Assembly (NCBI RefSeq): GCF_014647375.1
Contig: NZ_BMPB01000010.1
Span: forward strand, 211,535 to 275,534
Reading direction: 5' to 3'
Length of the DNA: 64,000 nucleotides
Origin: Parabacteroides faecis
GTDB taxonomy: Bacteria; Bacteroidota; Bacteroidia; Bacteroidales; Tannerellaceae
The notes beneath the pieces are model-generated. The model made no database searches. It was given only the letters and a program-made list of their open reading frames with translations, and was not told the DNA's origin. A program made the position numbers and the translations under genes. This document shows, one piece after another, positions 27,848-49,913 of this stretch. The number at the start of each line of letters is the position of its first letter. The stretch's first letter is position 1.

Positions 27848-27913
27848 GGACAAAAAAGTACCTTTTCTTAGACAAAAAGTGCCTTTCTTCCTGAAAGGAT
27901 CGTTTTATCTTTG
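27848..27913 (+). promoter_or_regulatory. operator plus promoter of the GH2 gene (shared 22-bp direct repeat)
   Basis: Half-site GGACAAAAAAGTAC begins at 27848 and AGACAAAAAGTGCC at 27870 (22-bp period). The -7 box TATCTTTG begins at 27906, exactly 58 bp after the first half-site. The same geometry recurs at three SusC promoters and, 1 bp shorter, at the lyase promoter. Confidence 0.82.
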
Positions 27914-27938
27914 CTATCGGAATAAAGAAATAAATAAC

Positions 27939-29975
27939 ATGAAACACATTCTTATCGGTTTACTGCTGGTATTGTGCAGTACATTAACTTATGCCTCCCG
28001 CAAGGAGATACTTCTGAATAACGACTGGATGTTCCGTTTTTCTCACCAGGTGCAGAAAAACAGTGCAGAGAGAGTCAATTTGCCACATACCTGGAACAGT
28101 GGAGATGCCCTTTCCGGAAAACAGGATTATTATCGCGGAATGGGAAATTATGAAAAAAAACTTTTTGTAAAACCCGAGTGGAAAGGTAAACGACTTTTCC
28201 TTCGTTTTGAAGGTGTCAATACCGTTGCAACGGTATTTGTCAATTCTGTTTGTCTGGGTGAACACAGAGGTGGTTACGGTGCTTTTGTATTCGAAATAAC
28301 AGATAAGGTAAAATATGGGGCTGAAAATGAGATATTGGTAAAAGTCAATAATGCCTTACAGCTGGATATAATGCCATTGGTCGGCGATTTTAATTTCTAT
28401 GGTGGTATTTATCGGGATGTGAATCTGATCATTACCGATCCGGTTAATATTTCATTGACCGATTATGCTTCCCCCGGTGTCTATCTGATCCAAAACAAGG
28501 TGACAAAAGAACAGGCCGATGTAAAGGCAAAAGTACTTGTATCGAATAGTTCGTCTGAAAACGTGCCGGTACAGGTGAATGTAAAGATATGGGATGGAAA
28601 CAAGATTGTGCAGCAACAGGATCTGAATCTGACGGTGGATGCCGGTCAGGTACATACGGCAGGTTTGGAGTTTTCCATTAAGAACCCTCATTTGTGGAAT
28701 GGCCGGAAAGATCCGTTTATATATCGTACGGAAGTGACTTTGCTGGCAGACGGTAAAGAAATAGACAGAGTGGTTCAGCCGTTGGGGCTTCGTTTTTACC
28801 ATGTGGATGCAGAGCAAGGTTTTTTCCTGAACGGCGAACATCTGAAGTTACGTGGCGTATGCCGCCACCAGGATCGTGCGGAGAGGGGAAATGCCTTATA
28901 TAAAGAACACCATGAAGAAGATGCTGCCATTATCGCAGAGATGGGTACGAATGCCATCCGTCTGGCACATTATCCGCAAGCTACTTATTTTTATAATTTG
29001 ATGGACAAATATGGTATCGTGGCTTGGGCTGAGATCCCGTTTATCGGGCCGGGCGGTTATCTGGACAGAGGATTCAACGATCTGCCTTCTTTCCGTGAGA
29101 ATGGGAAAGAACAATTGAAAGAATTGATCCGCCAGCATTATAATCATCCGTCTATCTGTTTCTGGGGATTGTTCAACGAATTGAAAACACACGGGGATAA
29201 CCCGATAGAATATATTAAGGAACTGAATGAACTGGCTCATCAGGAAGATCCGACGCGCCCGACAACGGCTGCCAGCTTCCTGTCGTATGACAGCGATATC
29301 AGCAAAATTACCGATGTGATTGCCTGGAACCAGTATTTCGGCTGGTATGGAGGTTCTCCTTCTGATATGGGGAAATGGCTGGATGCCAATCATAAAGCCC
29401 ATCCGGACTATAAGATCGCTATCAGTGAATACGGTGCCGGAGCCAGTATTTATCATCAGCAGGATTCAATTAAGCCGGGCGTAGCTTCCGGTTGGTGGCA
29501 TCCGGAGAATTTCCAGACTTTCTATCATATGGGAAACTGGGAGGCAATAGCTGAACGTCCGTTCGTTTGGGGATCTTTTATCTGGAACCTGTTCGATTTC
29601 GGAGCTGCCCATCGTACGGAAGGCGACCGCCCGGGTATCAATGACAAAGGATTGGTTACATTCGATCGTAAAGTGAAGAAGGATGCTTTCTATTACTATA
29701 AAGCAAACTGGAATAAAGACGATAAATTCGTTTACATCGCTAACCGCCGCCATCGCGATCGCACTACACAAGTGGCGGATGTAATGGTTTTCTCAAATTT
29801 GCCGGAGGTAGAACTGTTTGTGAACGGCAAAAGCATGGGAAAACAGACACCGGATAATTATGCAACTTTTGTGTGGAAAGGAATAAATCTGGCGGATGGA
29901 GAAAATACGATAGAAGCTCGTGCCGTTCAAAAGAAAAACAGTATAACGGATAGCGTGAACTGGACTTGTAAGTAA
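27939..29975 (+). CDS. GH2 beta-glycosidase (beta-galactosidase/glucuronidase type)
   Basis: 678 aa from the ATG at 27939. A longer frame back to 27774 is rejected because the operator and TATCTTTG box lie within it. A signal peptide (MKHILIGLLLVLCSTLTYA) exports it. Domains: sugar-binding sandwich (LNNDWMFRF, NLPHTWN), Ig-like domain, then a TIM barrel with acid/base Glu in CFWGLFNE and nucleophile Glu in ISEYGAGA, and a C-terminal Ig-like tail. The GH2 family includes beta-galactosidases, beta-mannosidases and beta-glucuronidases; which one is not settled. The promoter carries the same operator as the SusC and lyase promoters, so it is probably co-regulated with them. Confidence 0.9.
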   Translation: MKHILIGLLLVLCSTLTYASRKEILLNNDWMFRFSHQVQKNSAERVNLPHTWNSGDALSGKQDYYRGMGNYEKKLFVKPEWKGKRLFLRFEGVNTVATVFVNSVCLGEHRGGYGAFVFEITDKVKYGAENEILVKVNNALQLDIMPLVGDFNFYGGIYRDVNLIITDPVNISLTDYASPGVYLIQNKVTKEQADVKAKVLVSNSSSENVPVQVNVKIWDGNKIVQQQDLNLTVDAGQVHTAGLEFSIKNPHLWNGRKDPFIYRTEVTLLADGKEIDRVVQPLGLRFYHVDAEQGFFLNGEHLKLRGVCRHQDRAERGNALYKEHHEEDAAIIAEMGTNAIRLAHYPQATYFYNLMDKYGIVAWAEIPFIGPGGYLDRGFNDLPSFRENGKEQLKELIRQHYNHPSICFWGLFNELKTHGDNPIEYIKELNELAHQEDPTRPTTAASFLSYDSDISKITDVIAWNQYFGWYGGSPSDMGKWLDANHKAHPDYKIAISEYGAGASIYHQQDSIKPGVASGWWHPENFQTFYHMGNWEAIAERPFVWGSFIWNLFDFGAAHRTEGDRPGINDKGLVTFDRKVKKDAFYYYKANWNKDDKFVYIANRRHRDRTTQVADVMVFSNLPEVELFVNGKSMGKQTPDNYATFVWKGINLADGENTIEARAVQKKNSITDSVNWTCK

Positions 29976-30076
29976 TATAATAGATGGTTTTTTTCTACTA
30001 AATTGTGGTTCTTGCAAAAAGAATGATAATTGGATAAAGGTTATTGGGAATAATTTTAGTAGGAAAGTCTTTAAGG

Positions 30077-30114
30077 GATAGGGTGTTAGTGATTAATGCC
30101 TTATCTCTTTTTTT
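30077..30114 (+). terminator. terminator just outside inverted-repeat segment 1
   Basis: Seven-bp stem GATAGGG (30077-30083) with CCTTATC (30099-30105), then a T-rich run. Nearly the same sequence precedes segment 2, so terminator and invertible segment appear to be one duplicated cassette. It would insulate the GH2 transcript from the downstream SusC operon. Confidence 0.75.
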
Positions 30115-30126
30115 ATGTTTTGAATG

Positions 30127-30604
30127 TAGTTCTTGATGGACTATGGAGATTTAAAAGGCAAACATTATGGGCGCAAATGTAATCGAATGTTTTGTTTGCG
30201 AACACATAAATTCGTCTGATTGAAGTGCACAAATTGTCCACAAAGAGAAAATTAACAATGGCTGTATGTCTTGATTACATGTAACTTAGTTCTTTTTTCG
30301 CATTTGCATTTTGTAATGCAGTTTCTATTCAGAGTCTTACCTTTTGATCTGTCAGAGAGCAATTGATATATAAGTGTTTTGTGTTATATTCCGTTTATTG
30401 TGGTAAAATATTTCCCTCTGATAGAAAAAGAGTCTTTTTATTTGAAAGTTTCCCCGGCAAATCCAAACAAAATACATGCCGGATGGCAACATTATTTAAT
30501 AAACAGGTAAATACCAAAACTTTAATGAACTCGATGAAATATACCAACTTGAAAGTAACTCCGGATTTTTTTAATAAATAATCTCCATAGTCCATCAAGA
30601 ACTA
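30127..30604. repeat. inverted-repeat pair 1: candidate invertible promoter segment
   Basis: Perfect 25-bp inverted repeats at 30127-30151 and 30580-30604 enclose 428 bp. The core has the plan AGTTC-TTGAT-GGACT, with ATCAA as the centre of the right copy. The only operator-linked promoter inside reads leftwards (minus), away from susC at 30711. Inverting the segment would place its -7 box at about 30550-30557 on the plus strand, some 150 bp before susC. No recombinase gene is in the window. Confidence 0.85.
30174..30239 (-). promoter_or_regulatory. operator plus promoter inside segment 1 (now facing away from susC)
   Basis: On the minus strand, half-site GGACAATTTGTGCA starts at 30239, AGACGAATTTATGT at 30217 and -7 box TACATTTG at 30181. 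The spacings are 22 and 58 bp, identical to the GH2 promoter. Confidence 0.82.
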
Positions 30605-30687
30605 TTGCATTTAAGTTAAGCGAACAAAACTAATTATCCTTTGTACTTCAAAAACAAAAGGTGTTTTGGCGTACATAATTATTAATT

Positions 30688-30710
30688 CATTAACTAAATC
30701 TGGTGTTATT
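30688..30710 (+). promoter_or_regulatory. conserved 23-nt leader before susC start (copy 1)
   Basis: The bases immediately before the ATG are identical at all three susC genes (ends ATCTGGTGTTATT). They probably form a shared translation-initiation region and fix the start codon at MTKDFN. Confidence 0.7.
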
Positions 30711-33700
30711 ATGACGAAGGATTTTAATTGTTTTTATTTACCCAGGGCGGTGTTTGTTGGAGCGACAATGTTCCTGGCATCGGTTGGAGTGGCATCTGCC
30801 AGTTCGTCTATTTATGGACCTGGTACTTCAGGTACCAATGTTTCGCTTGCATCTCCACAGCAAGCGCAGAAAACGGTGAGTGGAGTAGTGGAAGATCAAT
30901 TTGGCCCGGTTGCAGGAGCAAATGTTGTAGAAAAAGGAACCACTAACGGAACCATTACCGATATGGAAGGTAAATTTACGTTGAACGTTTCTCCTAATGC
31001 TATTCTGGTCGTTTCTTTTATCGGTTATACAGAGCAGCAAATTCCCGTAGGCAATCAAACTTCATTTACTATTCAGATGAAGGAAGATTCTCAGGCTTTG
31101 GATGAGGTGGTCGTTGTAGGTTACGGCACACAGAAAAAAGTGAATTTGACAGGTTCTGTTTCTTCCGTCGACTTTACGGAACAAGCCGCAAGTCGTCCTA
31201 TTACTAATGTTTCATCGGCTTTGGGTGGTTTGTCTGCCGGTTTGCAGGTTATGCAGAGTAAAGGTAATCCGACCGACGATGGCGCAACGATCCGTGTTCG
31301 TGGTACAGGTACATTGAATAATGCCAGTCCGCTGGTATTGGTCGACGGTATGGAGGCCTCGATGGATGCCGTTAATCCACAGGATATCGAGACTATTTCA
31401 GTATTGAAAGATGCTGCATCTGCTGCTATTTATGGTTCGCGTGCTGCTAACGGTGTCATTCTGATTACGACAAAGAAAGGTAACCGTGAAAAGATCCGCG
31501 TAACTTATTCGGGTACTTTCTCTATGGCTCAACCTTCCAATCTGCTGGATTTTGTAACGGATTATCCTACGCATATGCGTTTGATCAATGAAGCAAAATT
31601 CAATGAGGGTTACAATGATGTATTCTCGGCTGCAACGATCGAAGCCTGGGAAGCAGCCAACGCTGATCCGAACGGTTTGAATGCAAACGGTGTTCCTAAC
31701 TGGCTGGCTTATCCGAATACAGACTGGAACAAAGAAATGTATAAGAATAATCTGGTTCAGGATCATGTTGTTTCGGTGAACGGTGGTAGCGAAAAAGTTA
31801 CATTTTTATTGTCAGCCGGTTATATGGACAACCCGGGTCTGGTTGAAAATACAGGTTTAAAACGTTACACATTGCGTGCCAATGTTGAAGCAAATGTAAA
31901 CAAATGGCTGACCTTGGGAACCCGTACCTATGCTATTATGAACGATAAAGAGCAGGGTAATTACGCCGATACCGGTATGTTGAACTTTATCCGTCAGACT
32001 ACGCCGGGTTTGATCGGTATGTATGATGGTAAAATGGGGTATAAGGAAGCTGCCGAAGAAAGTTCTACAGCTAATAATATCTGGGCATATCTGAAACAGA
32101 CTGATGGGCAGAACCGTTCTTCCCGTTTTAATACGACGATGTACAGTAAGATCAAGTTCATGGAAGGTTTGAGCTGGGACTTCAATTTCAACTACGGACG
32201 TCGTTTCGACGAATATAACTCACATACAGTCCCGCAGGCTCGCTATACATTCAGTAATGGTGAGATTGCTTCTACGGCAACGACTCCTGACCAGATGACA
32301 ACAACCTGGAAGTCGTATGCAGAAGAAACATATACGCTGGAAAATATTTTGCGTTATGACAAGAGCTTCAAAGGCGGTCACGATTTGAATGTAATGGTGG
32401 GATACAACGAATATTTCTATAAACAATATGAGCATAAGCAACAGAAAAAAGGATTGATAGACCCGAGTATCAACGTCCCCGATGCTGCCACAGAAATGCA
32501 GACCAGTACTGGTACAGCAAAAGATGAAGCGCTTCGTTCTGTATTTGGCCGTTTAAACTATGCTTATCTGTCCAAATATCTGTTTGAGGCAAACTTCCGT
32601 TATGATGGTTCTTCCCGTTTCAATTCCGATTCGCGTTGGGGTATCTTCCCGTCATTCTCTGCAGCATGGCGTTTGTCGGAAGAAGAATTTATGAAGAATA
32701 TCGACTGGTTGTCTAATCTGAAGATCCGTGCTTCATGGGGACAGATCGGTAACAACCGTATTACAGATAAAGATGGCTATCAGGATTATTACGGTTATCA
32801 GGCTACCTATAAGACTTATAATTATTCTTTCGGAGGGGCTCAGGCCGCTGCCTTGGCGCAGAACAGGATAGGCAACTCCCGTCTGGAATGGGAAAGTACA
32901 ACCGTTACGAACTTTGGTGTGGATGCCGGTTTCCTCAATAATCGTTTGACAGCAGAGTTGGACGTATATAATAAGGTAACGGACGGTATCTTGACAACTC
33001 CGAACCTGCATCTGACAATGGGTATTAAGACTCCGCCGACTATGAATACAGCTGAGGTTACAAACCGTGGTTTCGAATTGACAGTAGGTTGGAAAGATCA
33101 TGTAGGCGACTTCAATTATGCTGTTTCTACCAATTTCTCTTATAATCATAATGAGGTAACAAAATACCTGGGTAAATATGAGGCCGGTTGGGTAGAGAAA
33201 GACGGAAAGAAAGTATGGCAGTCTAACATCGGTGATGTATCAGTCGATAAAGATAAAGGACGTATTGTTGAAGGGCATCCGATCAAAGAATACTACACCT
33301 TGAATACCTATTCCGGTAGTGGTTCTCACTTCAACAGCGATGGTTCCGTAGATATTAAAGGAGGTCCGAAAGATGGTATGATCCGTACGGAAGATGATAT
33401 GAAATGGTTGAATGCCATGATAGACGCTGGTTACAAATTTATGCCCAACCAGAGTGTGGGTAAGAATAATATCTATTACGGTGATTTGATTTATGCCGAT
33501 TTGAATGGCGACGGTATTTATGGCAGTTCTTATGACTATGATTTTCAGGGCTCCTCCGCTATGCCTAAATTCGGTTATGGTATAAATATCAGTGCCAGTT
33601 GGAAAAACTTTGATTTGAGTATGTTGTGGGCCGGTAACGGTGGCTACAAACTGTATTGGGAAGAAGATCCGTATAATAGTGTCGCTATTAGAAATGGTTT

Positions 33701-34061
33701 TGCTACATCTGAACGGGTTGCAAACGATCATTATTTCTATGATCCGGAAAATCCGACTGATTCGAGAACCAATCTGAATGGCTACATCCCTCGTTTGGTG
33801 GAAAATTCAAAACAGAGTCGGCAAACCAGCAACTATTATTTGTACAACGGTACTTATATGAAATTGAAGAATCTGACAATCGGTTATACATTGCCCGTCT
33901 CTTTGACAGAAAAAGTTTCTGCGGAAAGAGTTCGTGTATATCTGTCTGGTGAAAACTTGTTTACCATAACATCATTCCCCGGTCAGGATCCTGAAATGGG
34001 GGCAACTACAAATTATCCCTCTTTGCGCCAGTTTGCTGCGGGTATTAGTGTTACATTCTAA
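30711..34061 (+). CDS. SusC-like TonB-dependent glycan transporter 1
   Basis: 1116-aa outer-membrane transporter that, with its SusD partner, imports oligosaccharides using TonB energy. Start at 30711 (MTKDFNCFYLPR) because the conserved leader precedes it; a TTG-initiated extension is rejected. Order: long N-terminal signal region, carboxypeptidase-regulatory-like domain (VSGVVEDQFGPVAGANVVEK), TonB-box/plug region (DEVVVVGYGTQKKVNLTGS, then GSRAANGVILITTKKG) and a barrel ending in QFAAGISVTF. SusD begins 15 bp later. The promoter is in the invertible segment upstream and, as written, faces the wrong way. Glycan specificity is unknown. Confidence 0.95.
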   Translation: MTKDFNCFYLPRAVFVGATMFLASVGVASASSSIYGPGTSGTNVSLASPQQAQKTVSGVVEDQFGPVAGANVVEKGTTNGTITDMEGKFTLNVSPNAILVVSFIGYTEQQIPVGNQTSFTIQMKEDSQALDEVVVVGYGTQKKVNLTGSVSSVDFTEQAASRPITNVSSALGGLSAGLQVMQSKGNPTDDGATIRVRGTGTLNNASPLVLVDGMEASMDAVNPQDIETISVLKDAASAAIYGSRAANGVILITTKKGNREKIRVTYSGTFSMAQPSNLLDFVTDYPTHMRLINEAKFNEGYNDVFSAATIEAWEAANADPNGLNANGVPNWLAYPNTDWNKEMYKNNLVQDHVVSVNGGSEKVTFLLSAGYMDNPGLVENTGLKRYTLRANVEANVNKWLTLGTRTYAIMNDKEQGNYADTGMLNFIRQTTPGLIGMYDGKMGYKEAAEESSTANNIWAYLKQTDGQNRSSRFNTTMYSKIKFMEGLSWDFNFNYGRRFDEYNSHTVPQARYTFSNGEIASTATTPDQMTTTWKSYAEETYTLENILRYDKSFKGGHDLNVMVGYNEYFYKQYEHKQQKKGLIDPSINVPDAATEMQTSTGTAKDEALRSVFGRLNYAYLSKYLFEANFRYDGSSRFNSDSRWGIFPSFSAAWRLSEEEFMKNIDWLSNLKIRASWGQIGNNRITDKDGYQDYYGYQATYKTYNYSFGGAQAAALAQNRIGNSRLEWESTTVTNFGVDAGFLNNRLTAELDVYNKVTDGILTTPNLHLTMGIKTPPTMNTAEVTNRGFELTVGWKDHVGDFNYAVSTNFSYNHNEVTKYLGKYEAGWVEKDGKKVWQSNIGDVSVDKDKGRIVEGHPIKEYYTLNTYSGSGSHFNSDGSVDIKGGPKDGMIRTEDDMKWLNAMIDAGYKFMPNQSVGKNNIYYGDLIYADLNGDGIYGSSYDYDFQGSSAMPKFGYGINISASWKNFDLSMLWAGNGGYKLYWEEDPYNSVAIRNGFATSERVANDHYFYDPENPTDSRTNLNGYIPRLVENSKQSRQTSNYYLYNGTYMKLKNLTIGYTLPVSLTEKVSAERVRVYLSGENLFTITSFPGQDPEMGATTNYPSLRQFAAGISVTF

Positions 34062-34076: not shown

Positions 34077-35870
34077 ATGAAATTAGTAAATAAAATATTA
34101 GTTGTTACAGCTGTTGCTTCGGTTATGACAGCTTGTAAACCTGATTTGTTGGATACGAATCCATACGATAAGGTAGGTTCCGGAGCCATGTGGGGAAATG
34201 AAACGATGTGTGATATGGGTGTGAATGGTATCTATGCCACATTGCGCGAGGCAAAGGTTGCACATGAAATGTTTACACAAGACGCTATGGGATTTGCCGG
34301 TCAGGCCCGTGATCCTCAGGATTTGTTGAATGGAACAATTACTGCCGGCAATAGTTTGTTCTCTGATACCTGGAAACAGTTGTATGAAGGAATTCACCGT
34401 GCAAATGATGCCATAGCCCATTTACCGGAAGCTCCATTGGATGATGCAAAGAAAGATCGTTTGATCGCTGAATCCAAATTCTTGCGTGCTTACTATTATT
34501 TCCGTTTGAACCGTGTATTCCAGGGTGTTCCTGTTTATCTGGAACCGGTGGAAGACAGCGAGTGTACCAATGGACGTGAAACGGCTGACAAAGTATGGGA
34601 AGTTATTATCTCCGACTTGAACGACTGCATCAACAGTGCTAATTTGCCGAATAAGTATGCGAAAGGTGATGCCAATTATGGTCGTGCAACGAAAGGTGCG
34701 GCATATGCTTTGCTGGGACAGACATATATGTGGATGAAAGATTATGCAAAAGCGGAAGCTGCTTTGCGTAAAGTCGGAGATGTCGGTTTTGCATTGTTTC
34801 AGGGGGATTACAAACAACTCTTCAAAACAGATAATGAACAATGTGATGAGATGATTTTCTCGGAACAGAATATTGGTATCAAAGATTATGGTTCCAAAAC
34901 ACAATTCTGGTTAGGTTCACGTGTTTCTTTTGGTTCTTGCTGGAATAGTTATCTGCCGAGTGTAAACTGGGTGGAATCATTTGAATGTGCAGACGGTAAG
35001 CCGTTTAACTGGAATGACTTCCTACCGGGATATAATGAGATGACTCCTAAAGAACGTGTGGTTTTCTTCCTCCGCGATACTGTCGGTGAGTGGGATACTT
35101 ATTCGGAAGATATAAAATCAAAACTGCGTGCAGGTTTTGAACTGGCCGTGAAAAATGGAGCTGATATGTCTAAATATCTACCTTCCGGAAATGAAGCCCG
35201 TTTGCGTAAAGCCTACGAAAATCGCGATCCTCGTCTGGAAGCGACTGTCATTACTCCGTATGCTGAATATAACGGGGCAATCGGTTCAAAAGAATATACT
35301 TATACCTTGCGTTGGCCGGCAACCAACTCGGATGAAGTCGAACCGTATGACCTGAGAACGGATAGCCAGACTTTGTTCTACTATCTGTATCGCAAATTTG
35401 TTGCGGAAGGATCGTCTGAAACTCCTAATCGTGAATATTGCCCCTGGGATTATCCGTTGATCCGTTATGCAGACGTAGTCTTAATGTTGGCAGAAGCTAT
35501 CAATGAACAAGGCTTTAAGCAGGAAGCTGTTGATTTGGTAAACTCTGTACGTGAGAGAGCCGGTGCTGCATTATTGCAGACAACAGATGCCGGTAAACCT
35601 ACTTATGTAAGTGGCCAGGAAAATATGCGTACCCGTATCCGTAACGAACGTCGTTGGGAATTATCTTTGGAAGGTGTTAACCTGTATGACGAAATTCGTT
35701 GGAGAACGATCGGTGACTGGTGTAAAACTGGTGATGGTTCCAAAGAAATCTGGGGTACTGTCGTAAATCCGTTCTCATGGGGTGGAGATTATCTTTATAC
35801 CTGGGCTATTCCAAGCACGGAATGTGAAAGAAATAGCAATCTGGTTCAGAATGATGGTTGGATAAACTAA
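34077..35870 (+). CDS. SusD-like glycan-binding lipoprotein 1
   Basis: 597-aa surface lipoprotein that caps the SusC barrel and binds glycan. Lipobox VMTAC at about residues 16-20, followed by the SusD N-terminal block (LLDTNPYDKVGSGAMW), TPR-like helices (RAYYYFRLNRVFQGVPVYLEP) and the C-terminal SusD/RagB region (PLIRYADVVLMLAEAINEQG, RRWELSLEGVNLYDEIRW) ending NSNLVQNDGWIN. It pairs with the SusC gene 15 bp upstream. A terminator follows at 35966. Confidence 0.95.
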   Translation: MKLVNKILVVTAVASVMTACKPDLLDTNPYDKVGSGAMWGNETMCDMGVNGIYATLREAKVAHEMFTQDAMGFAGQARDPQDLLNGTITAGNSLFSDTWKQLYEGIHRANDAIAHLPEAPLDDAKKDRLIAESKFLRAYYYFRLNRVFQGVPVYLEPVEDSECTNGRETADKVWEVIISDLNDCINSANLPNKYAKGDANYGRATKGAAYALLGQTYMWMKDYAKAEAALRKVGDVGFALFQGDYKQLFKTDNEQCDEMIFSEQNIGIKDYGSKTQFWLGSRVSFGSCWNSYLPSVNWVESFECADGKPFNWNDFLPGYNEMTPKERVVFFLRDTVGEWDTYSEDIKSKLRAGFELAVKNGADMSKYLPSGNEARLRKAYENRDPRLEATVITPYAEYNGAIGSKEYTYTLRWPATNSDEVEPYDLRTDSQTLFYYLYRKFVAEGSSETPNREYCPWDYPLIRYADVVLMLAEAINEQGFKQEAVDLVNSVRERAGAALLQTTDAGKPTYVSGQENMRTRIRNERRWELSLEGVNLYDEIRWRTIGDWCKTGDGSKEIWGTVVNPFSWGGDYLYTWAIPSTECERNSNLVQNDGWIN

Positions 35871-36014: not shown

Positions 36015-36453
36015 TAGTTCTAGCTGGACTGTGTCCATATCATGAAACAAAACTGTACGGCACAAAAGTAACACATCGTATGATCTGTTAACATACATTT
36101 TTGTCTAATATTGGTGCATTTATTGTCCAAAAATAAAAAATTAACACAATAGTAATGGGCTGTATATGAATATAGTGCATAGATTATGGTCAATTTGCAC
36201 TAACTATTGAAGTTCTGACAGGTAGAAATAGAACATTCATTTCTCAAAATTAGGTTATATCAATTACTGTTTTTCTGTTAATATTAAATAATAGAATTCT
36301 AACGACTTTTCTAAACTACTTTTGTTCTGCTATTGAAAAACAAAAAGAGACAGAGCTTTATTCTCAGTTGTTTTCTTATTTGTAAAAAATTACTGATGAG
36401 CCAAAATCTAATGATTAGTTAATGAATAAATGGACACAGTCCAGCTAGGACTA
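36015..36453. repeat. inverted-repeat pair 2: candidate invertible promoter segment
   Basis: 24-bp inverted repeats (36015-36038 and 36430-36453, one mismatch) enclose 391 bp. The left core is AGTTC-TAGCT-GGACT and the right is AGTCC-AGCTA-GGACT. The arms match pair 1, while the 5-bp centre is specific to this locus. The operator-linked promoter inside reads leftwards; inversion would put its -7 box near 36398-36405 facing susC. Confidence 0.83.
36063..36128 (-). promoter_or_regulatory. operator plus promoter inside segment 2 (facing away from susC)
   Basis: On the minus strand, half-site GGACAATAAATGCA starts at 36128, AGACAAAAATGTAT at 36106 and -7 box TACTTTTG at 36070. Spacings are 22 and 58 bp, as in segment 1. 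Confidence 0.82.
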
Positions 36454-36535
36454 TTTCCTTTTTATGTGAAACGAACGGGCTAAAATTCTTGCACAACAAG
36501 TTGTAGTGATTTGGTGTGCGCAAACACAATTTATT

Positions 36536-36558
36536 CATTAACTAAATCTGGTGTTATT
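36536..36558 (+). promoter_or_regulatory. conserved 23-nt leader before susC start (copy 2)
   Basis: Identical to the 23 bases preceding the other two susC start codons. Confidence 0.7.
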
Positions 36559-40006: not shown

Positions 40007-41911
40007 ATGAAAAAGATATTTAATTTGTTAACATTGGCGGCTGTTTTCGGAGTCGCAACATCCTGTACGGATATTTTGGATACGGCACCTAATGATAAGC
40101 TTTCCAGTGGTACTATGTGGACTACCGAAGAAAGCGTTGACCAGGGCGTTATTGGCGTGTATTACTCCTTGCAGAGACCTTTCCATGGAAATCAAATTAT
40201 TGGTGCCGATGCCATGATTGGTTATTATGGGTATGATGCGTTTGGTATGACCGGACAGGGAGAGTATGGCATGCAAAACTTGTTTACTAAATCGGTCAAT
40301 CCCAGTAACGGGTTTTTCTTAAAAACATGGCAATGGATGTATGACGGTGTGCATCGGGCTAATGCCGCTATAGCTGGTATTGAAAATGCTCCTATCAATG
40401 AAGCTAAAAAAGCTCGTTTGATTGCTGAGTGTAAAGTACTTCGTGCATTCTTTTACGATCGTTTGAACATTCTTTTCGGTAATGGCGGAATAGGGGTACC
40501 TTTGTATACGGAACCGGTGAACCCGTCTGAATGTGACAAGCCTCAAAGTTCGGAACAGGAGATATGGGCTCAAGTTATTAAGGATTTAAGCGATGCTATA
40601 GCTGAGCCTAATTTACCTGACAATCAAATCCAAGGAGAAGGACGAGTAAGTAAAGGGGCTGCTTATGCTTTGCGTGGTAAGGCATATCTGTTGACAAAGG
40701 AGTATGATAAAGCAATAGCAGACTTTGCTAAGGTAGGTGAGTGTGGTTACAAATTGTTCCCCGACTACAAACAACTGTTCAAGGTTGCTAACGAGCGTTG
40801 TGAAGAGATTATTTTGGCAGTGCAGTATATAGAAGATCCTACGGGATATGGTACGGGAATACAAAAGTATTGTGCGGCATTTACCCAGGGAGCTAAAGAT
40901 AGCCGTGGCTGTTGGGGTGACTTGCAGGTGACTCCTGCGTTGGTAAACCTTTATGAAGAGGTGAATGGGCAGACTGTTAAAAAGTTTGCTTGGGAGGACT
41001 ATTTGTCTGATTGGAAGAAAGTGACTGACATGGAGACAGCCAAAGGACACACGAAATATCGCAAAGTATTCTTTATTCGCGATAAGTTCGTGAATGGAAA
41101 GGAAATCCATTCTACGGTTACGAAGGCAGTTGATACGGAACTGGCCAAATTGCCCGCAGAAATTCAGGCTATTTATTTGCCGGAAGGTAATGAGGCTCGT
41201 TTAAAAACAGCATATGCCAATCGTGACCCGCGCTTGGCTTACAATGTTGTGACACCTTATGCCAATTATTTGGGGGTAAATAGTAATTCTACGGCAGAAG
41301 CGTGGTACACGTTTCGTTGGCCTGTTGCTGGTAAATATTATGCAGATCAGGCAAATGCCGAACCGAATGCCAATCCGGAGTTACCGAACGATTATTATGC
41401 TTCCGGTTTTATGAATGCACAGGCTGAATTTAAATATATTCATCGTAAATTTATCGGTGAGGGGTTGGAATACCTGCGTCGTGAGCAGAATCCGGTAGAT
41501 GAACCTATCATTCGTTATGCAGATGTACTGTTGATGTGGGCCGAAGCACTTGTTGAAAAGAATGACTTGGCAGGTGCTATGGCCAAGGTGAAAGAGGTCC
41601 GTGACCGTGCCGGTATACCGACTATGGCTTCTAGCTTCTCAGATCAGACAACTGCACGTAACTATGTGCGTGACGAACGTCGTCGTGAGTTTGTGAACGA
41701 AGGTATAAACTTTTTTGATGAAATGCGTTGGCGTACGTTGAAAGAAACAAAATTCAGTGAAAAGGTTGCCCAGCATGCATGGGGCGGAACAGAGAGTACC
41801 GGAGGTACTGTTTATGATTGGATTGGTGACCAGTGGTATACTTGGCCTGTTCCCAAAAGTGAAACAGAGCTTAATCCGAATTTGATACCTACACCGGGTT
41901 GGGAATACTAA
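40007..41911 (+). CDS. SusD-like glycan-binding lipoprotein 2
   Basis: 634-aa surface lipoprotein partner of SusC 2. Lipobox VATSC at about residues 17-21, then DILDTAPNDKLSSGTMW, helical repeats (ECKVLRAFFYDRLNILFGNGGIG), and the C-terminal region with PIIRYADVLLMWAEALVEKN, RRREFVNEGINFFDEMRWR and NPNLIPTPGWEY. It is longer than SusD 1 and 3 through extra segments around residues 300-450. It ends before a hairpin at 41956. Confidence 0.95.
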   Translation: MKKIFNLLTLAAVFGVATSCTDILDTAPNDKLSSGTMWTTEESVDQGVIGVYYSLQRPFHGNQIIGADAMIGYYGYDAFGMTGQGEYGMQNLFTKSVNPSNGFFLKTWQWMYDGVHRANAAIAGIENAPINEAKKARLIAECKVLRAFFYDRLNILFGNGGIGVPLYTEPVNPSECDKPQSSEQEIWAQVIKDLSDAIAEPNLPDNQIQGEGRVSKGAAYALRGKAYLLTKEYDKAIADFAKVGECGYKLFPDYKQLFKVANERCEEIILAVQYIEDPTGYGTGIQKYCAAFTQGAKDSRGCWGDLQVTPALVNLYEEVNGQTVKKFAWEDYLSDWKKVTDMETAKGHTKYRKVFFIRDKFVNGKEIHSTVTKAVDTELAKLPAEIQAIYLPEGNEARLKTAYANRDPRLAYNVVTPYANYLGVNSNSTAEAWYTFRWPVAGKYYADQANAEPNANPELPNDYYASGFMNAQAEFKYIHRKFIGEGLEYLRREQNPVDEPIIRYADVLLMWAEALVEKNDLAGAMAKVKEVRDRAGIPTMASSFSDQTTARNYVRDERRREFVNEGINFFDEMRWRTLKETKFSEKVAQHAWGGTESTGGTVYDWIGDQWYTWPVPKSETELNPNLIPTPGWEY

Positions 41912-42286: not shown

Positions 42287-43048
42287 TTAATTAAGGTCGC
42301 TACACGTAACCCCAGAGTATATATGATTATTGTAAGCTTCTAAAATGCCACTAGCTATCCTAGTATAAGGATTGCTATAAATAAGTCCTGTCGTCTTGTT
42401 GTTTACTGCCCCGTAAAGACTCCAGCATATAATACTGAAACTAGAGGTGGAGGGATATGCTTTAATATAAACAAAAGGCAGAAACTCATCGTCTTTTTGC
42501 TTATCCATTCGAGCCATAATAGCTGCAGCTTGTGCATAAGTAAAAGAAGATCCTGGAGGACAATTGTTCTCTTCTATAAATGCTGCTCCTTCATACCTAT
42601 CCTTAAGCTTCTCCCACGCAGTCTTTTCTTCCTTTTTAGAGCCATCAGATTCTGTGTTAGAATCATCAGGTGGACCAGGAAAAGATATAATATTATAACG
42701 CATATTATAAGAATATAGCCAGTTTGAAATATCCGTAAGACCTAAAATATTATATCCTACACATCCTCCAAATTGTGCTATTGTTTCTTCGATTGTTAGA
42801 GGTCCGGTCAAGAATGTAGTTTTCCCTTTACTCTCATAATCCGACCAATATGGACCCATATCAAAGCCATGATACATAATAGCCCCAATAACCTCTATTC
42901 TCCAATCATGTAAATTAAAGGGGCCGTTATCGTTAATGCTTTTTGTAACGACATCTATGGTAGAATCATCCTTTTCATCAAATACTGTTTCGTTGCTACA
43001 CGCAAAAAACAACATAAAAGCCACTGATGCAAATAATAGATTTTTCAT
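42287..43048 (-). CDS. hypothetical lipoprotein
   Basis: 253 aa, function not recognised. The N-terminus is a lipoprotein signal with lipobox FFAC at about residues 14-17, so it is probably an outer-membrane or surface lipoprotein. The rest has many aromatic residues, a Lys/Glu-rich stretch (SDGSKKEEKTAWEKLKDRYE) and three further Cys. No enzymatic motif is apparent. It sits alone between the susD remnant and a broken IS element, in DNA of lower GC than the SusC/SusD genes, so it may be a survivor of a lost or transferred cluster. A TAGCTTTG box is about 90 bp upstream. Confidence 0.65.
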   Translation of the reverse strand: MKNLLFASVAFMLFFACSNETVFDEKDDSTIDVVTKSINDNGPFNLHDWRIEVIGAIMYHGFDMGPYWSDYESKGKTTFLTGPLTIEETIAQFGGCVGYNILGLTDISNWLYSYNMRYNIISFPGPPDDSNTESDGSKKEEKTAWEKLKDRYEGAAFIEENNCPPGSSFTYAQAAAIMARMDKQKDDEFLPFVYIKAYPSTSSFSIICWSLYGAVNNKTTGLIYSNPYTRIASGILEAYNNHIYSGVTCSDLN

Positions 43049-44250: not shown

Positions 44251-44268
44251 TTTGAAATAGATGGGTTA

Positions 44269-45984
44269 TTACCAGTTCGGATTCTGTGTCAAATCCGGAT
44301 TGATTTCGATTTCTGTAGCGGGTATTGGCCACAGGTAATCGCGGTTTTCGCGGAATACACGGGTTAGCATACGTTTTCCTGTGATGCCGAATTCATCTCC
44401 GTTCAATAGAGTATGGGATAATTTCCAGCGACGCAGGTCACTGTCGCGGATACCTTCGCCAGCCAACTCGAATGCTCTCTCACGGAAAATACGCTGGAAT
44501 ACTTCATCCTTTGTATTGGCGGCCAGATAAGAAGGACCGCTGTTCAGCAGGGCGATTCCGGCACGGGCACGAACTTTGTTGATGTATTCGACAGCCTTTG
44601 ACTGGTTGCCCGTTTCATTATAACATTCTGCCAACATCAGATAAACATCTGCCAGACGAAGAATCGGGAAGTTAACAGGGGTATGGGCACGGTCGGTAAT
44701 TTGTCCGTTCCAGTCGCCTTCCGGTACAAATTTTCTCCAGAAATAGGTTTCCCATCCCCCCTTATTGTTTCGCATGAAACCGTTATTTTCGTTTACGGCA
44801 ACAACGTCACCTTTTTCGTTTTTCGCGAAGATGAAAGTCATCAGACGTTCTTGGTTACGGTTCCATCCCAGATAAGTTGTGTAAGGAGCGATAACGGTGG
44901 CCGATAAACGCGGGTCACGCTGTTCGTACATCTCTTTTACTTTTTCCGATTCAGCCGGGATATCCAGTACTTCCGAACCGTCGCTGTTGACCGTGCATCT
45001 GAATACACGTTCCTTAACCTGGTTGTCGGAGTTGAAGCCGGGGAATACTTCGTCCCAGTCGAACGGGCGTCCGTCCTTGTATTCATACATGTCGACCAGG
45101 TTGGTGGAAGGTACCGTATTGTTCCAGCAACTGCCATAGGAGTTACGGGTTCCGGCATAGAAACATAAAGGCATACCGTAGCTGTTTCCTGTTCCTCCCA
45201 GGTTGATGATGGAGAAAATCATTTCGGAACTGGTATGGCCCGTCGGAGTGAATAACTCAGCGAAGTCATCATGTAATGCATGTCCAGCTTGGGATTTTTC
45301 CAGGTTTTCGATGGCTTTGTCGTATTGTTTGTCGTACAAGTAAACCTTACCCAACAGGGCCTGGGCTGCTGACAATGTAACACGTCCGTAGTTTGCATCG
45401 TTCCATTGGTCGGGAAGTCCGGCGCCCAATGCCTTTTCCAGGTCGGCAAGGATAAAAGCACGTGTTTCTTCTGCAGAACTTCTGGGTTTCAGTAGGTTGT
45501 TGAACTCTTTTTCCAGATCGGTCGTTTCGTCGTATATGGGAAGTCCTCCGAAATAGTCCAGCAGGTGGAAATAGATTAATGCACGGAGAAAACGAGCTTC
45601 ACCCAACATCTGGTTTTTAGGTACTTCGTCGATAGGAGCTTCGCCAATGCTGCGGATAGCCAGATTGGCACGCTGAATGGCGTTGTATCCGTTTTGCCAT
45701 TTGCCGTTCAGGAATCCGGTACGCGGGGTACAGGTTCCCAGCTGAAGGGCTTCATACTGGTCATATCCGGCTGCGACATCGGAGTTGACGTCTATCATAA
45801 ACATTTTACCGTACAGGTCGGTGTTTTTCAGGGAGGCGTAAACTCCCATCAGACCTTGCTTACACTGGTCTTCCGTCTGCCAGAAAGTACTGGAACTCAA
45901 CTGGTCGTATGGAGCCCTGTCCAGGTCGTAACAGCCTGTCAATGTAAATAAGGCTGCTAAAAAAGACATGATATATTTTTTCAT
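44269..45984 (-). CDS. SusD-like glycan-binding lipoprotein 3
   Basis: 571-aa surface lipoprotein. Lipobox LTGC at about residues 15-18, then DLDRAPYDQLSSSTFW, helical repeats (EARFLRALIYFHLLDYFGGL), and the C-terminal region (FPILRLADVYLMLAECYNE, RERAFELAGEGIRDSDLRRW) ending INPDLTQNPNW. It is downstream of SusC 3 on the minus strand with a 33-bp gap. Same architecture as the other two SusD proteins but clearly divergent, so probably a different glycan or fragment. Confidence 0.95.
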   Translation of the reverse strand: MKKYIMSFLAALFTLTGCYDLDRAPYDQLSSSTFWQTEDQCKQGLMGVYASLKNTDLYGKMFMIDVNSDVAAGYDQYEALQLGTCTPRTGFLNGKWQNGYNAIQRANLAIRSIGEAPIDEVPKNQMLGEARFLRALIYFHLLDYFGGLPIYDETTDLEKEFNNLLKPRSSAEETRAFILADLEKALGAGLPDQWNDANYGRVTLSAAQALLGKVYLYDKQYDKAIENLEKSQAGHALHDDFAELFTPTGHTSSEMIFSIINLGGTGNSYGMPLCFYAGTRNSYGSCWNNTVPSTNLVDMYEYKDGRPFDWDEVFPGFNSDNQVKERVFRCTVNSDGSEVLDIPAESEKVKEMYEQRDPRLSATVIAPYTTYLGWNRNQERLMTFIFAKNEKGDVVAVNENNGFMRNNKGGWETYFWRKFVPEGDWNGQITDRAHTPVNFPILRLADVYLMLAECYNETGNQSKAVEYINKVRARAGIALLNSGPSYLAANTKDEVFQRIFRERAFELAGEGIRDSDLRRWKLSHTLLNGDEFGITGKRMLTRVFRENRDYLWPIPATEIEINPDLTQNPNW

Positions 45985-46017: not shown

Positions 46018-49000
46018 TTAGAAAGTAACATTAATACCGATTACAGCTTGACGCATGGTCGGATAGGTAACGCCGCTCACTTCAGGGTCGTATCCTTTCC
46101 ACTTCGAGAAAGTGAAGAAGTTTTCCAAACTGCCGTATACTCTGACTCTGTCCATATAGGCAACCTTGGTCCATTGACTGGGCAGGGTATAACCTAATGT
46201 GATGTTACGAATTTTCAGGTACGCCTTGCTGGCAACCCAGAAGTCGGAATACTGTTCGTTACGGGTATCGCTATAGTCCAGCAGACGTGGATAACTGGCA
46301 TCCGTACGGCCTTCGTACCAACGTCCGTCGATAACTTCCTGGTTCATCTGGTAACCCTGGCGGACACCACTTTTATACAGGTTGCTCAGATATACGTCTT
46401 TAATGCCGGCTACACCCTGAATCAATGTAGAGAAGTCAATGCCTTTCCAGTTGAATCCCAGGTTCACTCCATACGTGAAGGTCGGGTTCTTGCCATTTCC
46501 GATAACGGTACGGTCATCATCGTTTACCAGTCCGTCGCCATTCAGGTCTTTGTACAGGATATCACCTTTTTGAGGAACTCCGTAAGGGAATACGACCTTA
46601 CCTTCTACTTCCGGGTTATTCAACATCGTTTCAACCAGTGCCAGGTCTGCATCTGTCTGGATGATACGGTCAATTTCGCGGACATACAAAGACCAGATAG
46701 GAAGTCCTTCCTTCAACATTCTGGCTCCGTCGTACGAAGGTTCGTCTCCTTTAAATTTATCGACATTGTTTTTGATGTAAGTGAAGTTGAAGCCTACATT
46801 ATAGTCGAAATCCTTACCGACTCTGTCGGACCAGTTCACAGAGAACTCAACCCCCTTATTGGTTACCTGGGCGGCATTCTGCTTAGGAATTGTCGCGTTA
46901 CCGTGAACCATAGGAGCCGGAAGGTCAATCAAAATGCCGTCTGTTTTCTTATTGAAGAATTCGAGACTACCGCTCAAGCGATTGCTAAACATATTATAGT
47001 CAACCCCCAGGTTGGTGATATAGGTCGTTTCCCAAGACAGATTGGCATTGGCGATGGCAGTTTGAGAAAGTCCCATTGCCACGGTACGGCCTAATACGTA
47101 GTTGGTCTGTGCATACAGCGATTGCGAGAGGTAGTTGCCGTCGTTATCTCTGTTGCTTCCCAGGGTGTTGTTACCCAGCGAACCGTAAGAACCGCGTATC
47201 TTCAGGTTGTCCAGCCAGGTGAAGTCTTTCATGAAGTTTTCTTCCGAAATACGCCAGGCAGCAGAGAACGATGGGAAATAACCCCAGCGGTTATCTTTCT
47301 GGAAACGGGAAGAACCGTCGGCACGAAGGTTGGCTTCCAATAAGTATTTGTCATCCCAACCCAGGTTGATACGTCCGAAGAAAGAGCGCATCGCCCATTC
47401 CGTAACATTACCGGTTGAGGAAGATTCACCGATAGCTCCTCCGATTACACCCAGTGACGGGTCGAGCAAATCCTTACGGGTGGCACTGAAGTAAGAACGT
47501 TTGTATTGTTCCTGGCTGGCACCAATCATGATATTTGTGCTCAGGCGGTTATTCAGATAGTTACGTTCGTAGCGGGCGATGGCATCCATGAAATTCCTGT
47601 AGGTCTTTTCATTGTAATTATAGATGCTTGTCTGGCCCACACCATCCGTATATAACGTATTTGTTTGGAAATTATACATCGGGACGAAGTTCGGTTTCGA
47701 ATCCTTTTGTTTGTCATAATAATCATAGGTATAAGAACCCTGGATAGTCAGACCTTTTAACGGAGTCAAAATCGCATACATACGGGTTTTCAGCGTGTTT
47801 ATTCCGATGTTACCGCTCACATTCCTTAAACGATTATATGGATTGTTTGTAGCGTTCTGAGGGTCATCTTCATTATTGGCATTGATACCCAACCGGTTCT
47901 GGTCGTCCAGATAGGCGATACCCGGGTTTCCACCGGTTAAGCCGTAGGTATAGATATCGTTGATGTTCTCGCTGACCGGAGTTGTATTGGCTGTATATCC
48001 GCTCAGGTTTACACCGATTTTCAACCAGTCTTTTACCTGCGAATCGATATTGGCACGGAGGCTGAAACGTTCGTATCCGCAATTTTCCAGGATACCCGGG
48101 TTATTCAGATAATTGAAAGATGTATAATAAGTCACTTTTTCGGAACCTCCGGTTGCTGACAGGCTGTGTTGATGGGAAACACCGGTTTCATACACATCGA
48201 AGATGTCGCTGTTAGGATATGCCAGATAGTTCGGAATACCATGCTCATTCAGACCGTTCGGGTCTTTCGACTTCTCACGCCACAAATTTATCACGTTCTG
48301 GGAGAAAGGCTCGGGTTTATTGCTGTTGCGCATCCCTTCATTCATATACTCCATGTAGCTGGCATAGTCGGTGACTACGTCGTATGGCTTGTTCAGGCTC
48401 TGGAAAGAAACATAACCGGTATAGTCGATTTTCATCCTGCCGGCCTTACCTGACTTGGTGGTAATCAGGATAACACCGTTTGCTGCACGTGAACCGTAGA
48501 TGGCCGATGAGGCAGCATCCTTCAATACGCTGACTGTTTCCACATCCTGCGGGCTGACGCTGTTCAAATTACCTTCCACACCATCAATAATAACCAGGGG
48601 AGAGGAGTTGTTCAATGTTCCCTGTCCGCGTACCTTAATATCCGCATCTCCGTTGTTGGAGGGGATATTGTTGCTGGATGTGATCTGTACCCCCGGTGCA
48701 GTTCCGGCCAAAGCCGTAGAGATGTTAGTTAACGGGCGGCTTTCGGCCATCTCGCTGACATTTACGGAGGTAACGGAGCCGGACAGGTTCACCTTCTTCT
48801 GCGTACCGTAACCTACTACAACGACTTCGTCCAGTGCCTGGGAGTCTTCCGATAATTTAATCCGTAATGATTTCTGGTTATTCACCGGAATCTGTTGTTC
48901 CTTGAATCCGATAAATGAAACGACCAGTACGGAATTAGGTGATACTTCCAGGGTAAAGTTACCGTCCATATCGGTAATTGTCCCGTTTGTGGTTCCCTTC

Positions 49001-49221
49001 TCAACTACATTGGCGCCTGCTATCGGACCGAACTGATCTTCGACTACTCCATTAATAATGTATTTGGCTTGTTGAGGAGAAGCAGCAACAGGGTTCGGTA
49101 AGGCTGTACCCGTAGTTCCTGTTGCCGGACTGGCCGTTGCCAATCCTACAGATGCTAGAAGCAGGGTTGCTCCCAGGAACATCTGTTTTGATAAGTAAAA
49201 ACGATTAAAATCCTTTGTCAT
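46018..49221 (-). CDS. SusC-like TonB-dependent glycan transporter 3
   Basis: 1067-aa outer-membrane transporter starting MTKDFNRFYLSKQMFLG directly after the conserved 23-nt leader. Regulatory-like domain (INGVVEDQFGPIAGANVVEK), TonB-box/plug (DEVVVVGYGTQKKVNLSGS; GSRAANGVILITTKSG) and barrel ending QAVIGINVTF. The N-terminal 150 residues closely match SusC 1 and 2. It is oriented toward them, with SusD 3 after it. Its promoter segment upstream (49319-49719) is also flanked by inverted repeats, with the operator-linked promoter now pointing the opposite way, toward the lyase gene. Confidence 0.95.
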   Translation of the reverse strand: MTKDFNRFYLSKQMFLGATLLLASVGLATASPATGTTGTALPNPVAASPQQAKYIINGVVEDQFGPIAGANVVEKGTTNGTITDMDGNFTLEVSPNSVLVVSFIGFKEQQIPVNNQKSLRIKLSEDSQALDEVVVVGYGTQKKVNLSGSVTSVNVSEMAESRPLTNISTALAGTAPGVQITSSNNIPSNNGDADIKVRGQGTLNNSSPLVIIDGVEGNLNSVSPQDVETVSVLKDAASSAIYGSRAANGVILITTKSGKAGRMKIDYTGYVSFQSLNKPYDVVTDYASYMEYMNEGMRNSNKPEPFSQNVINLWREKSKDPNGLNEHGIPNYLAYPNSDIFDVYETGVSHQHSLSATGGSEKVTYYTSFNYLNNPGILENCGYERFSLRANIDSQVKDWLKIGVNLSGYTANTTPVSENINDIYTYGLTGGNPGIAYLDDQNRLGINANNEDDPQNATNNPYNRLRNVSGNIGINTLKTRMYAILTPLKGLTIQGSYTYDYYDKQKDSKPNFVPMYNFQTNTLYTDGVGQTSIYNYNEKTYRNFMDAIARYERNYLNNRLSTNIMIGASQEQYKRSYFSATRKDLLDPSLGVIGGAIGESSSTGNVTEWAMRSFFGRINLGWDDKYLLEANLRADGSSRFQKDNRWGYFPSFSAAWRISEENFMKDFTWLDNLKIRGSYGSLGNNTLGSNRDNDGNYLSQSLYAQTNYVLGRTVAMGLSQTAIANANLSWETTYITNLGVDYNMFSNRLSGSLEFFNKKTDGILIDLPAPMVHGNATIPKQNAAQVTNKGVEFSVNWSDRVGKDFDYNVGFNFTYIKNNVDKFKGDEPSYDGARMLKEGLPIWSLYVREIDRIIQTDADLALVETMLNNPEVEGKVVFPYGVPQKGDILYKDLNGDGLVNDDDRTVIGNGKNPTFTYGVNLGFNWKGIDFSTLIQGVAGIKDVYLSNLYKSGVRQGYQMNQEVIDGRWYEGRTDASYPRLLDYSDTRNEQYSDFWVASKAYLKIRNITLGYTLPSQWTKVAYMDRVRVYGSLENFFTFSKWKGYDPEVSGVTYPTMRQAVIGINVTF

Positions 49222-49244
49222 AATAACACCAGATTTAGTTAATG
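49222..49244 (-). promoter_or_regulatory. conserved 23-nt leader before susC start (copy 3)
   Basis: Reverse-strand copy, identical to the 23 bases before the other two susC start codons. Confidence 0.7.
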
Positions 49245-49318
49245 ATTAATTAATTGTTTACCCGGTTTACTGATTCTTTTTCCGTGAGTTTCAGCCTGGG
49301 TATTTGGCAAAAACCACA

Positions 49319-49719
49319 TAGTTCTAATGGAACTACGCTGTTTTTTTGATTTGGATGGCGAAAGGATTGAAGATCAATTAGTATATAATGACTGTTGAAA
49401 ACGGTGTGGATTTTAGGGTAACTTTAGGTAAGGCACTGATAAATAAATGGAGAGCGGAGAAAGACAAATCATTGGTATTTGCGTTGCAGATACTGAAAAG
49501 ATGTTTGGAATGATTAAATCATCACTGTTATTATTATTGAATATCGTTAACATTCTTATCCGGAGGCTAAATATACAAAGGCTTTAAAATAGGGAGATTA
49601 TCGTTTTTTATAAATAAGCGCTGGACTATTAGTGCATATTAAATGGATAAATTAATACACTCGTTAACATTAATAACATATATATTTGCATCGGTATGAT
49701 TGGAGTTCCATTAGGACTA
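49319..49719. repeat. inverted-repeat pair 3: candidate invertible promoter segment
   Basis: 16-bp inverted repeats (49319-49334 and 49704-49719, one mismatch). The left core is AGTTC-TAATG-GAACT and the right is AGTTC-CATTA-GGACT. The arms are as in pairs 1 and 2, and the 5-bp centre differs from both but is matched within the pair. The operator-linked promoter inside (49623-49688) faces right, away from susC 3. After inversion its -7 box would lie near 49350-49357 on the minus strand, about 130 bp from the susC 3 ATG. Confidence 0.8.
49623..49688 (+). promoter_or_regulatory. operator plus promoter inside segment 3 (facing the lyase gene)
   Basis: Half-site GGACTATTAGTGCA begins at 49623, GGATAAATTAATAC at 49645 and -7 box TATATTTG at 49681. 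Spacings are 22 and 58 bp. In the orientation shown, transcription would run toward the lyase gene at 49938. Confidence 0.8.
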
Positions 49720-49848
49720 AGTTATATTTTAATATATGTGAAAACAGCTTGCTTCAAAGGTGGTATCAAATACCTTAACAGACTAAGACATACCTTTATT
49801 TACAATGAAATAAAAAGAACCTTTTGACTTATTTTTATCCATGCCTTT

Positions 49849-49913
49849 GGACGATAAGTGCATATGAAATGGATAAATAGACGCCTCTGTTATAGACAAT
49901 CTTTCTACTTTTG
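49849..49913 (+). promoter_or_regulatory. operator plus promoter of the lyase-GH88 operon
   Basis: Half-site GGACGATAAGTGCA begins at 49849, GGATAAATAGACGC at 49871 (22-bp period) and -7 box TACTTTTG at 49906 (57 bp, one shorter than the other four). It is outside the inverted repeats and so has fixed orientation. The ATG is 24 bp after the box. Confidence 0.82.

Follow-up and report, generated by a model that had tools for sequence, protein, structure and literature searches.

The locus and its genes

Within a 64,000-nucleotide stretch of the Parabacteroides faecis genome (contig NZ_BMPB01000010.1; the whole stretch is called the window below) lies what is probably a Parabacteroides polysaccharide utilization locus (PUL) for a uronic-acid glycan, comprising a PL33-like lyase, a GH88 enzyme, a GH2 beta-glucuronidase and three SusC/SusD pairs. 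Five predicted promoters in this locus share a two-part operator, and three of them, one near each susC gene, sit between inverted repeats and are read away from susC. Taken together, these features very probably mean that a single hybrid two-component system (HTCS) regulator controls the PUL, with the three importers gated by both the glycan signal and the orientation of the DNA, and with the GH2 and lyase-GH88 promoters fixed.

The regulator carries a Reg_prop propeller, Y_Y_Y, HisKA, HATPase_c, receiver and AraC-type helix-turn-helix domains by Pfam, the architecture of a PUL-encoded hybrid sensor kinase, and its receiver-AraC region is a relative of 12aw. It had been described as the only such regulator in view, which holds for the 27 of 69 listed open reading frames (ORFs) that were scanned against Pfam. 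HTCS proteins sense glycan fragments and activate PULs. Here the substrate is likely a glucuronate-containing glycan, judging by the homology of the PL33-like lyase, GH88 and GH2. The GH2 protein scores 1196.9 bits against NF050095, the beta-glucuronidase LacZ4 model (cut-off 950), and the closest relatives of the lyase in the named collection belong to P. goldsteinii (83%) and P. gordonii (82%). The structure matched by the lyase, 8R73, was deposited with PMC11848413; in the available text of that paper, hyaluronan or heparosan are the substrates of PL33_1 enzymes, and chondroitin sulfate or gellan those of PL33_2. The PL33 assignment puts heparosan and hyaluronan first among the candidate glycans.

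Table 1. Window positions of the genes, predicted promoters and putative inverton arms of the locus.
Feature	Position	Strand	Remarks
GH2, beta-glucuronidase LacZ4 type	27774..29975	+	ORF as listed; likely start 27939, in frame
GH2 promoter, fixed	27848..27913	+	half-sites 27848-27859, 27870-27881; -7 box 27906-27913; likely ATG 27939
Inverton 1 left arm	30127..30151		core 30128-30142, spacer TTGAT
Candidate invertible promoter 1, OFF for susC1	30174..30239	-	half-sites 30239-30228, 30217-30206; -7 box 30181-30174
Inverton 1 right arm	30580..30604		core 30589-30603, spacer ATCAA; 25 bp, 100% complementary to left arm
susC1	30666..34061	+	likely ATG 30711
susD1	34077..35870	+	Pfam
Inverton 2 left arm	36015..36038		core 36016-36030, spacer TAGCT
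Candidate invertible promoter 2, OFF for susC2	36063..36128	-	half-sites 36128-36117, 36106-36095; -7 box 36070-36063
Inverton 2 right arm	36430..36453		core 36438-36452, spacer AGCTA; arms 24 bp, 96%
susC2	36511..39990	+	likely ATG 36559
susD2	40007..41911	+	Pfam
susD3	44269..45984	-	Pfam
susC3	46018..49221	-	Pfam, NCBIfam
Inverton 3 susC3-side core	49320..49334		spacer TAATG
Candidate invertible promoter 3, OFF for susC3, aimed at lyase gene	49623..49688	+	half-sites 49623-49634, 49645-49656; -7 box 49681-49688
Inverton 3 lyase-side core	49704..49718		spacer CATTA
Lyase-GH88 promoter, fixed	49849..49913	+	half-sites 49849-49860, 49871-49882; -7 box 49906-49913
Polysaccharide lyase, PL33-like	49938..51878	+	match to 8r73_A, E 7.4e-289
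GH88	51886..53091	+	Pfam
HTCS regulator, 1340 aa, proposed activator	53125..57147	-	Pfam

An operator shared by five promoters

The original prediction placed first half-sites at 27848+, 30239-, 36128-, 49623+ and 49849+, with the second half-site starting 22 bp after the first in all five, TGCA ending the first half-site in four of the five, and the TAnnTTTG box, known as the Bacteroides -7 element (PMC4747536, in the part available), starting 58 bp after the first half-site start in four and 57 bp in one; these coordinates and spacings are all correct. Written as GGAC-N-A-N16-RGAY-N-A-N28..32-TAnnTTTG, the pattern matches five times in the window where 0.00 matches are expected (0 of 100 shuffles). 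The whole 6.66-Mb genome holds six matches, the five window sites and a sixth on contig C23 (the longest open frame that spans it has 170 codons), and none to the reversed pattern, so the scatter of copies at random, promoter-unlinked positions that had been named as grounds for refutation did not turn up. Half-sites by themselves are unspecific, and the box at its fixed place is needed, because a looser pattern without the box gives 25 genome matches against 14 for its reverse. Since the strict pattern was derived from the five window sites themselves, the informative points are how rarely it occurs elsewhere and its presence in related genomes.

That presence was examined in 39 genomes of the genus, own genome included (G000), with one genome per species. 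An HTCS ortholog occurs in eight of the 38 others at 68-85% identity, and three further genomes have HTCS relatives at 39-46%. Of the 26 strict-pattern matches in the set, 23 sit in the orthologous locus, and the reversed control matched in 0 of 39 genomes. Chance as the origin of the pattern was rejected on the window shuffles, the genome scan, the distribution in the genus and the fixed box offset.

An alignment of 28 sites from nine genomes (the GH2 site of G001 was left out) contains sites chosen by the pattern, and the columns used for choosing them are conserved by construction. Conservation extends to columns outside the pattern: T-A-A at -15 to -13 in 26, 25 and 24 of the 28 and a further A in 19, T at -1 in 26, and G-C-A at positions 11-13 in 20, 23 and 18. 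The TAA(A) element, 15 bp upstream of the first half-site, is an addition to the original prediction. When half-site weights were taken from the relatives' 23 sites alone, the five window sites occupied ranks 1-5 of 127,920 positions with 22.7-29.6 bits, the next-best position reaching 12.9; weights from the relatives' GH2 and lyase sites only (15) placed the three susC sites at ranks 2, 3 and 5.

The operator also extends beyond these genomes. A looser score applied to 80 related-lyase loci (1,454,122 bases) gave 22 hits in 17 loci, with box offsets of 57 in seven and 58 in 15 where 54-62 were allowed, and none in reversed sequence. Four of these loci (L030, L102, L036 and L041) were taken to be the same loci as those of G013, G009, G001 and G021; without them there remain 13 hits in 13 loci (offset 57 in four, 58 in nine). 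At eight of the 13 (L032, L034, L037, L040, L047, L050, L051, L066) the site is directed at a susC-like gene, with the match to it starting 123-346 bases on.

The claim of a direct repeat stood in part: the 22-bp spacing holds in five of five sites, but the repeat is weak inside any single site, the halves having little in common beyond RGAY-N-A. With each site shuffled 300 times, its self-similarity was reached 81 times for 30239, 30 for 36128, 133 for 49623, 2 for 27848 and 196 for 49849. The case for a direct repeat is the alignment across promoters and species, and not the single sites. Predicted HTCS operators of Bacteroides are direct repeats about two helical turns apart, with a mean of 21 bp (Ravcheev et al. 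2013, PMC3878776, in the part available), and a shared HTCS operator of this known kind appears well supported. Its second half-site begins 35-36 bp ahead of the -7 box, and the geometry would fit a class II activator just upstream of -35. The GH2 site at 27848 is the most divergent of the five, and the operator there is best described as a divergent subtype.

As for the proposal that the five promoters form one regulon under the HTCS at 53125-57147, conservation and co-occurrence support it well, and binding by that protein is a prediction. A different regulator, an HTCS paralog for instance, could instead recognize the operator, with the invertons real and the HTCS at 53125 not the master of the regulon; own genome does have HTCS relatives at 48% and 36%. 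We consider this quite unlikely, given that the strict pattern occurs in nine of nine genomes with the ortholog (own included) and in two of 30 without it, that at the cut-off applied the 48% paralog has no match in four of the nine (G009, G013, G015, G038), and that the HTCS gene lies within the locus in the relatives compared.

Promoters between inverted repeats

The original prediction took all five for working promoters of the GH2, SusC/SusD and lyase-GH88 genes. In the assembly, the only promoters that face their genes are those of GH2 and the lyase; the other three (30239-, 36128- and 49623+), assigned to susC genes, each point away from their susC. The first two read leftwards, with susC1 and susC2 lying to their right and reading rightwards, and 49623+ reads rightwards, away from susC3, which starts at 49221 and reads leftwards.

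At all three susC loci the promoter lies between inverted repeats near the gene start, the arrangement that defines an inverton. The arms have a core, AGTYC-N5-GRACT, that occurs seven times in the window where 0.08 occurrences are expected, six of them being the arms of the three invertons. This core resembles AGTYYYN4GDACT, which we take to be the class II repeat consensus of B. fragilis. The enclosed segments measure 384-461 bp. No inverted repeat above shuffles flanks the GH2 promoter (41 of 60 shuffles reach its best) or the lyase-GH88 promoter. A seventh core, without a partner in the window, lies inside susC3 at 46833-46847.

In ten of ten tabulated invertons, drawn from seven genomes with seven different spacers, the two arms have complementary N5 spacers; one spacer is common to three of the ten (G012, G014, G015). 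G021 was left out of this table, having one arm that deviates from the core. Tyrosine-recombinase strand exchange at a short overlap would require matched spacers, a requirement that would insulate the three switches from each other. The flanking repeats were assessed with a mismatch-tolerant inverted 17-mer, an exact-repeat test being one that would have missed inverton 3. Among 11 invertons, no shuffle reached the best flanking 17-mer in ten, the exception being inverton 3; in G012 and G014 the best 17-mer consists of the two susC starts rather than the arms. From these repeats, the three susC promoters look invertible, and all three would be OFF for susC in this assembly.

The idea that the arms are mere terminators was rejected: five-pair hairpins do occur at the right arm of inverton 2, but they leave the matched spacers in both arms unexplained. 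Separately, two similar terminator-like hairpins with T runs stand on the plus strand after GH2 and susD1 (30073-30109 and 35965-35997), just outside invertons 1 and 2.

Repeat pairs of this type are found elsewhere in the genome. The survey covered 20 stretches, 19 at further core matches, among the matches listed, and one at the HTCS paralog on contig C14. An inverted core pair, 147-405 bp apart, is present in 16 of them, so that the genome has at least 16 among the matches listed, and at eight of the 16 a susC-like match begins within 500 bp. The other four stretches (L133, L144, L147, L149) have no such pair, and 16 of 20 is not to be read as a rate. The HTCS-equipped segments of the window are longer than all other pairs found among the matches listed, except that of L146 (405). 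Direct repeats upstream of the -7 box were sought in 14 other invertons, among which only L141 stood out (6 of 300 shuffles reach it). Single cores are uninformative, since the 17-bp core with one mismatch allowed occurs 111 times per strand in the genome as against 116 for the reversed control. One further inverton, at 3825-4003 of L132 (G000:C1:258000-266000), contains GGACAAT...GGATAAT at 21 bp, a half-site look-alike without a TAnnTTTG box.

At the outside loci the picture differs. None of the eight where the operator faces susC has a core between -1000 and +400, and in the seven testable ones no flanking inverted 17-mer rises above shuffles (reached by 5 to 60 of 60; L040 had too little upstream sequence for this test). 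Because the same operator there faces susC without such repeats, invertons seem to have acquired formerly fixed promoters within Parabacteroides.

Orientation in related genomes

A sign of inversion comes from comparing G015 and G021, in which the segment has the same neighbors, the lyase and the susC3 ortholog. Both flanks align in the forward direction, at 83.5% over 109 columns on the lyase side and at 88.6% over 175 columns on the susC side from the repeat on, whereas the interior aligns in reverse (200 columns, 80.0%). The promoter of G015 points away from susC3 and that of G021 towards it. A comparison of G015 with G014, whose segment faces susC, gives the same result for the susC side (88.1% forward) and the interior (75.9% reversed). 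The pair of G015 and G012 is less clean: it aligns at 96.6% forward, but the 595-column reversed match (80.8%) continues for about 77 bases beyond the far repeat, as these flanks are also similar to one another when inverted, and the susC faced in G012 is a different gene, 54% identical to susC3. These opposite orientations of the susC3-type segment are, like the operators, their conservation and the repeats, read directly from the sequence.

All told, 11 invertons with a located operator were found in eight genomes; eight face away from the adjoining susC (three in G000, two in G013, and one each in G009, G038 and G015) and three face one (G012, G014 and G021). The segment of G012 and G014 has divergent susC genes on its two sides, and facing one therefore means facing away from the other. 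Contigs C125 and C100 of G001, on either side, both stop at the core plus three and have identical terminal 18 bases. A culture with both orientations present when sequenced should give such a break, which makes this indirect evidence. The left susC of the divergent pair in G012 and G001 (L124, L160 vs L123) is only 54-55% identical to susC3; despite this divergent gene, the G012 leader is 96.6% identical to the G015 susC3 leader, which suggests that genes or leaders may have been exchanged at the repeats.

Both orientations are seen across species for the susC3 type only, and inversion of segments 1 and 2 is what their own repeats and the sibling segment would predict. The repeats could be relics, inversion having happened between species and the switches now being locked OFF in this strain. 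All three promoters do face away in the assembly and the arms of inverton 3 are imperfect, but the cores and spacers are intact in all three, at least 16 other repeat pairs of this core exist in the genome, and an OFF state would also fit growth without the substrate, or chance. We regard such locking as unlikely.

Small RNAs near susC are known in Bacteroides, and the away-facing promoters might be dedicated to making antisense or small RNAs with GH2, susD1 and susC as their regulatory targets. As sequenced, 30239- and 36128- would indeed run antisense towards the 3' ends of GH2 and susD1, and all four type 1 segments seen face that way. This alternative gives the repeat arms with their matched spacers no role, however, and sits poorly with a susC3-type segment that faces susC in G014 and G021 but away in G015, and with an operator that faces susC outside the inverton-bearing genomes; it is very unlikely.

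Several observations do weigh against a regulon of invertible, HTCS-driven promoters. By within-site shuffles, the two half-sites of one site are not clearly alike. Weights from susC sites only (8) put the GH2 site at rank 166, weights from GH2 sites only (7) put the lyase site at rank 103, 49623 at 376 and 30239 at 54, and weights from lyase sites only (8) put the GH2 site at rank 11. The arms of inverton 3 are just 81% complementary over 26 bp, and one of 60 shuffles reaches its best 17-mer. All type 1 segments seen (G000, G013, G009, G038) face away, no ortholog of segment 2 was found among the relatives' stretches fetched, and with one genome per species the orientation comparison is one between species. 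Finally, the 23 PF00589 matches in the genome pointed to no particular invertase.

Sensor and DNA orientation as two proposed layers of control

In the mechanism that we favor, for which we infer binding and activation by the HTCS, recombinase action, expression and the substrate, the HTCS would bind the operator GGAC-N-A ... RGAY-N-A, with its 22-bp period and upstream TAA(A), which ends just before the -35 region and whose first base lies 57 or 58 bp from the start of the -7 box. When the signal is present, the fixed GH2 and lyase-GH88 promoters would be activated. A site-specific recombinase would invert the three short promoter segments at the AGTYC-N5-GRACT repeats, and an importer would be expressed only if the HTCS were activated and its segment faced susC. 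All three would be OFF in the sequenced genome. The OFF position of inverton 3 aims at the lyase gene and might add transcription there; beside the lyase gene in G000, G013 and G015, that position points at the lyase-GH88 operon.

A more tentative suggestion, somewhat short of probable, is that the switches allocate the output of one regulator, between importers or between import and depolymerization, rather than merely silencing it. If so, the same signal would drive one of two divergent susC importers in G012 and G014, and a flip beside the lyase gene would shift signal-driven transcription between importing and depolymerizing functions. Clone-mates exposed to one glycan would then differ in their mix of importers and enzymes, dividing labor by a heritable, sensor-gated DNA orientation.

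PUL induction is commonly taken to be deterministic, with the importer on whenever the glycan is there. The sequence suggests two layers, sensor and DNA orientation, for the importers of one regulon, the enzymes needing the sensor alone. Were this true, the induction measured in a mixed culture would be an average over ON and OFF cells, and OFF copies would escape regulon predictions that demand gene-facing operators.

Other features of the locus

The susC2/susD2 pair is 76% and 79% identical to a pair in the uncultured Bacteroides locus L066, where the lyase is only 62% identical; no best match to susC2 occurs in the fetched stretches of eight relatives, and horizontal gain of the pair is possible. 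Between susD2 and susD3, a 253-aa ORF (42287-43048, minus strand) has no match in Pfam or NCBIfam. Three consecutive tRNA-Asn(gtt) genes lie at 18591-18880 (minus strand). In G001, a second lyase gene, 37% identical, is found between GH2 and susD3 (L160 8384-10294, C125).

Relation to known systems

HTCS operators and SusC/SusD invertons are each known; what may be new here is the operator travelling inside the inverton. No description of an HTCS operator inside an inverton was found in the open-access literature, a scope that does not take in preprints, supplements and most subscription papers, nor is one described in the available parts of PMC3878776, PMC4747536, PMC12632263, PMC10994844, PMC10939037, PMC10333322, PMC11852207, PMC11848413, PMC12125979, PMC6927303, PMC12118408, PMC13114119 and PMC10881964.

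The resemblance to the Bacteroides HTCS regulons (PMC3878776) lies in a PUL-encoded HTCS, a direct-repeat operator and a regulon that takes in several operons of one PUL. The available text of that work describes no operator as invertible, whereas here three of five lie in repeat-bounded segments facing away. Like the invertible capsule promoters of Bacteroidales, as described in the accessible parts of the sources, the proposed switches would turn ON and OFF by inverting a promoter with a TAnnTTTG -7 box; the capsule promoters differ in their repeats and targets, and their second layer is UpxY/UpxZ rather than a sensor-activated operator. In Bacteroides fragilis, the Tsr0667 invertase inverts SusC/SusD regions (PMC4747536, PMC11852207, both in part). 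There too, inversion changes which SusC/SusD is expressed and many regions of the genome share the repeat type, but Tsr0667 carries out shufflon-type multiple inversions at three clusters, whereas the locus described here appears to have single promoter segments that each carry an HTCS operator.

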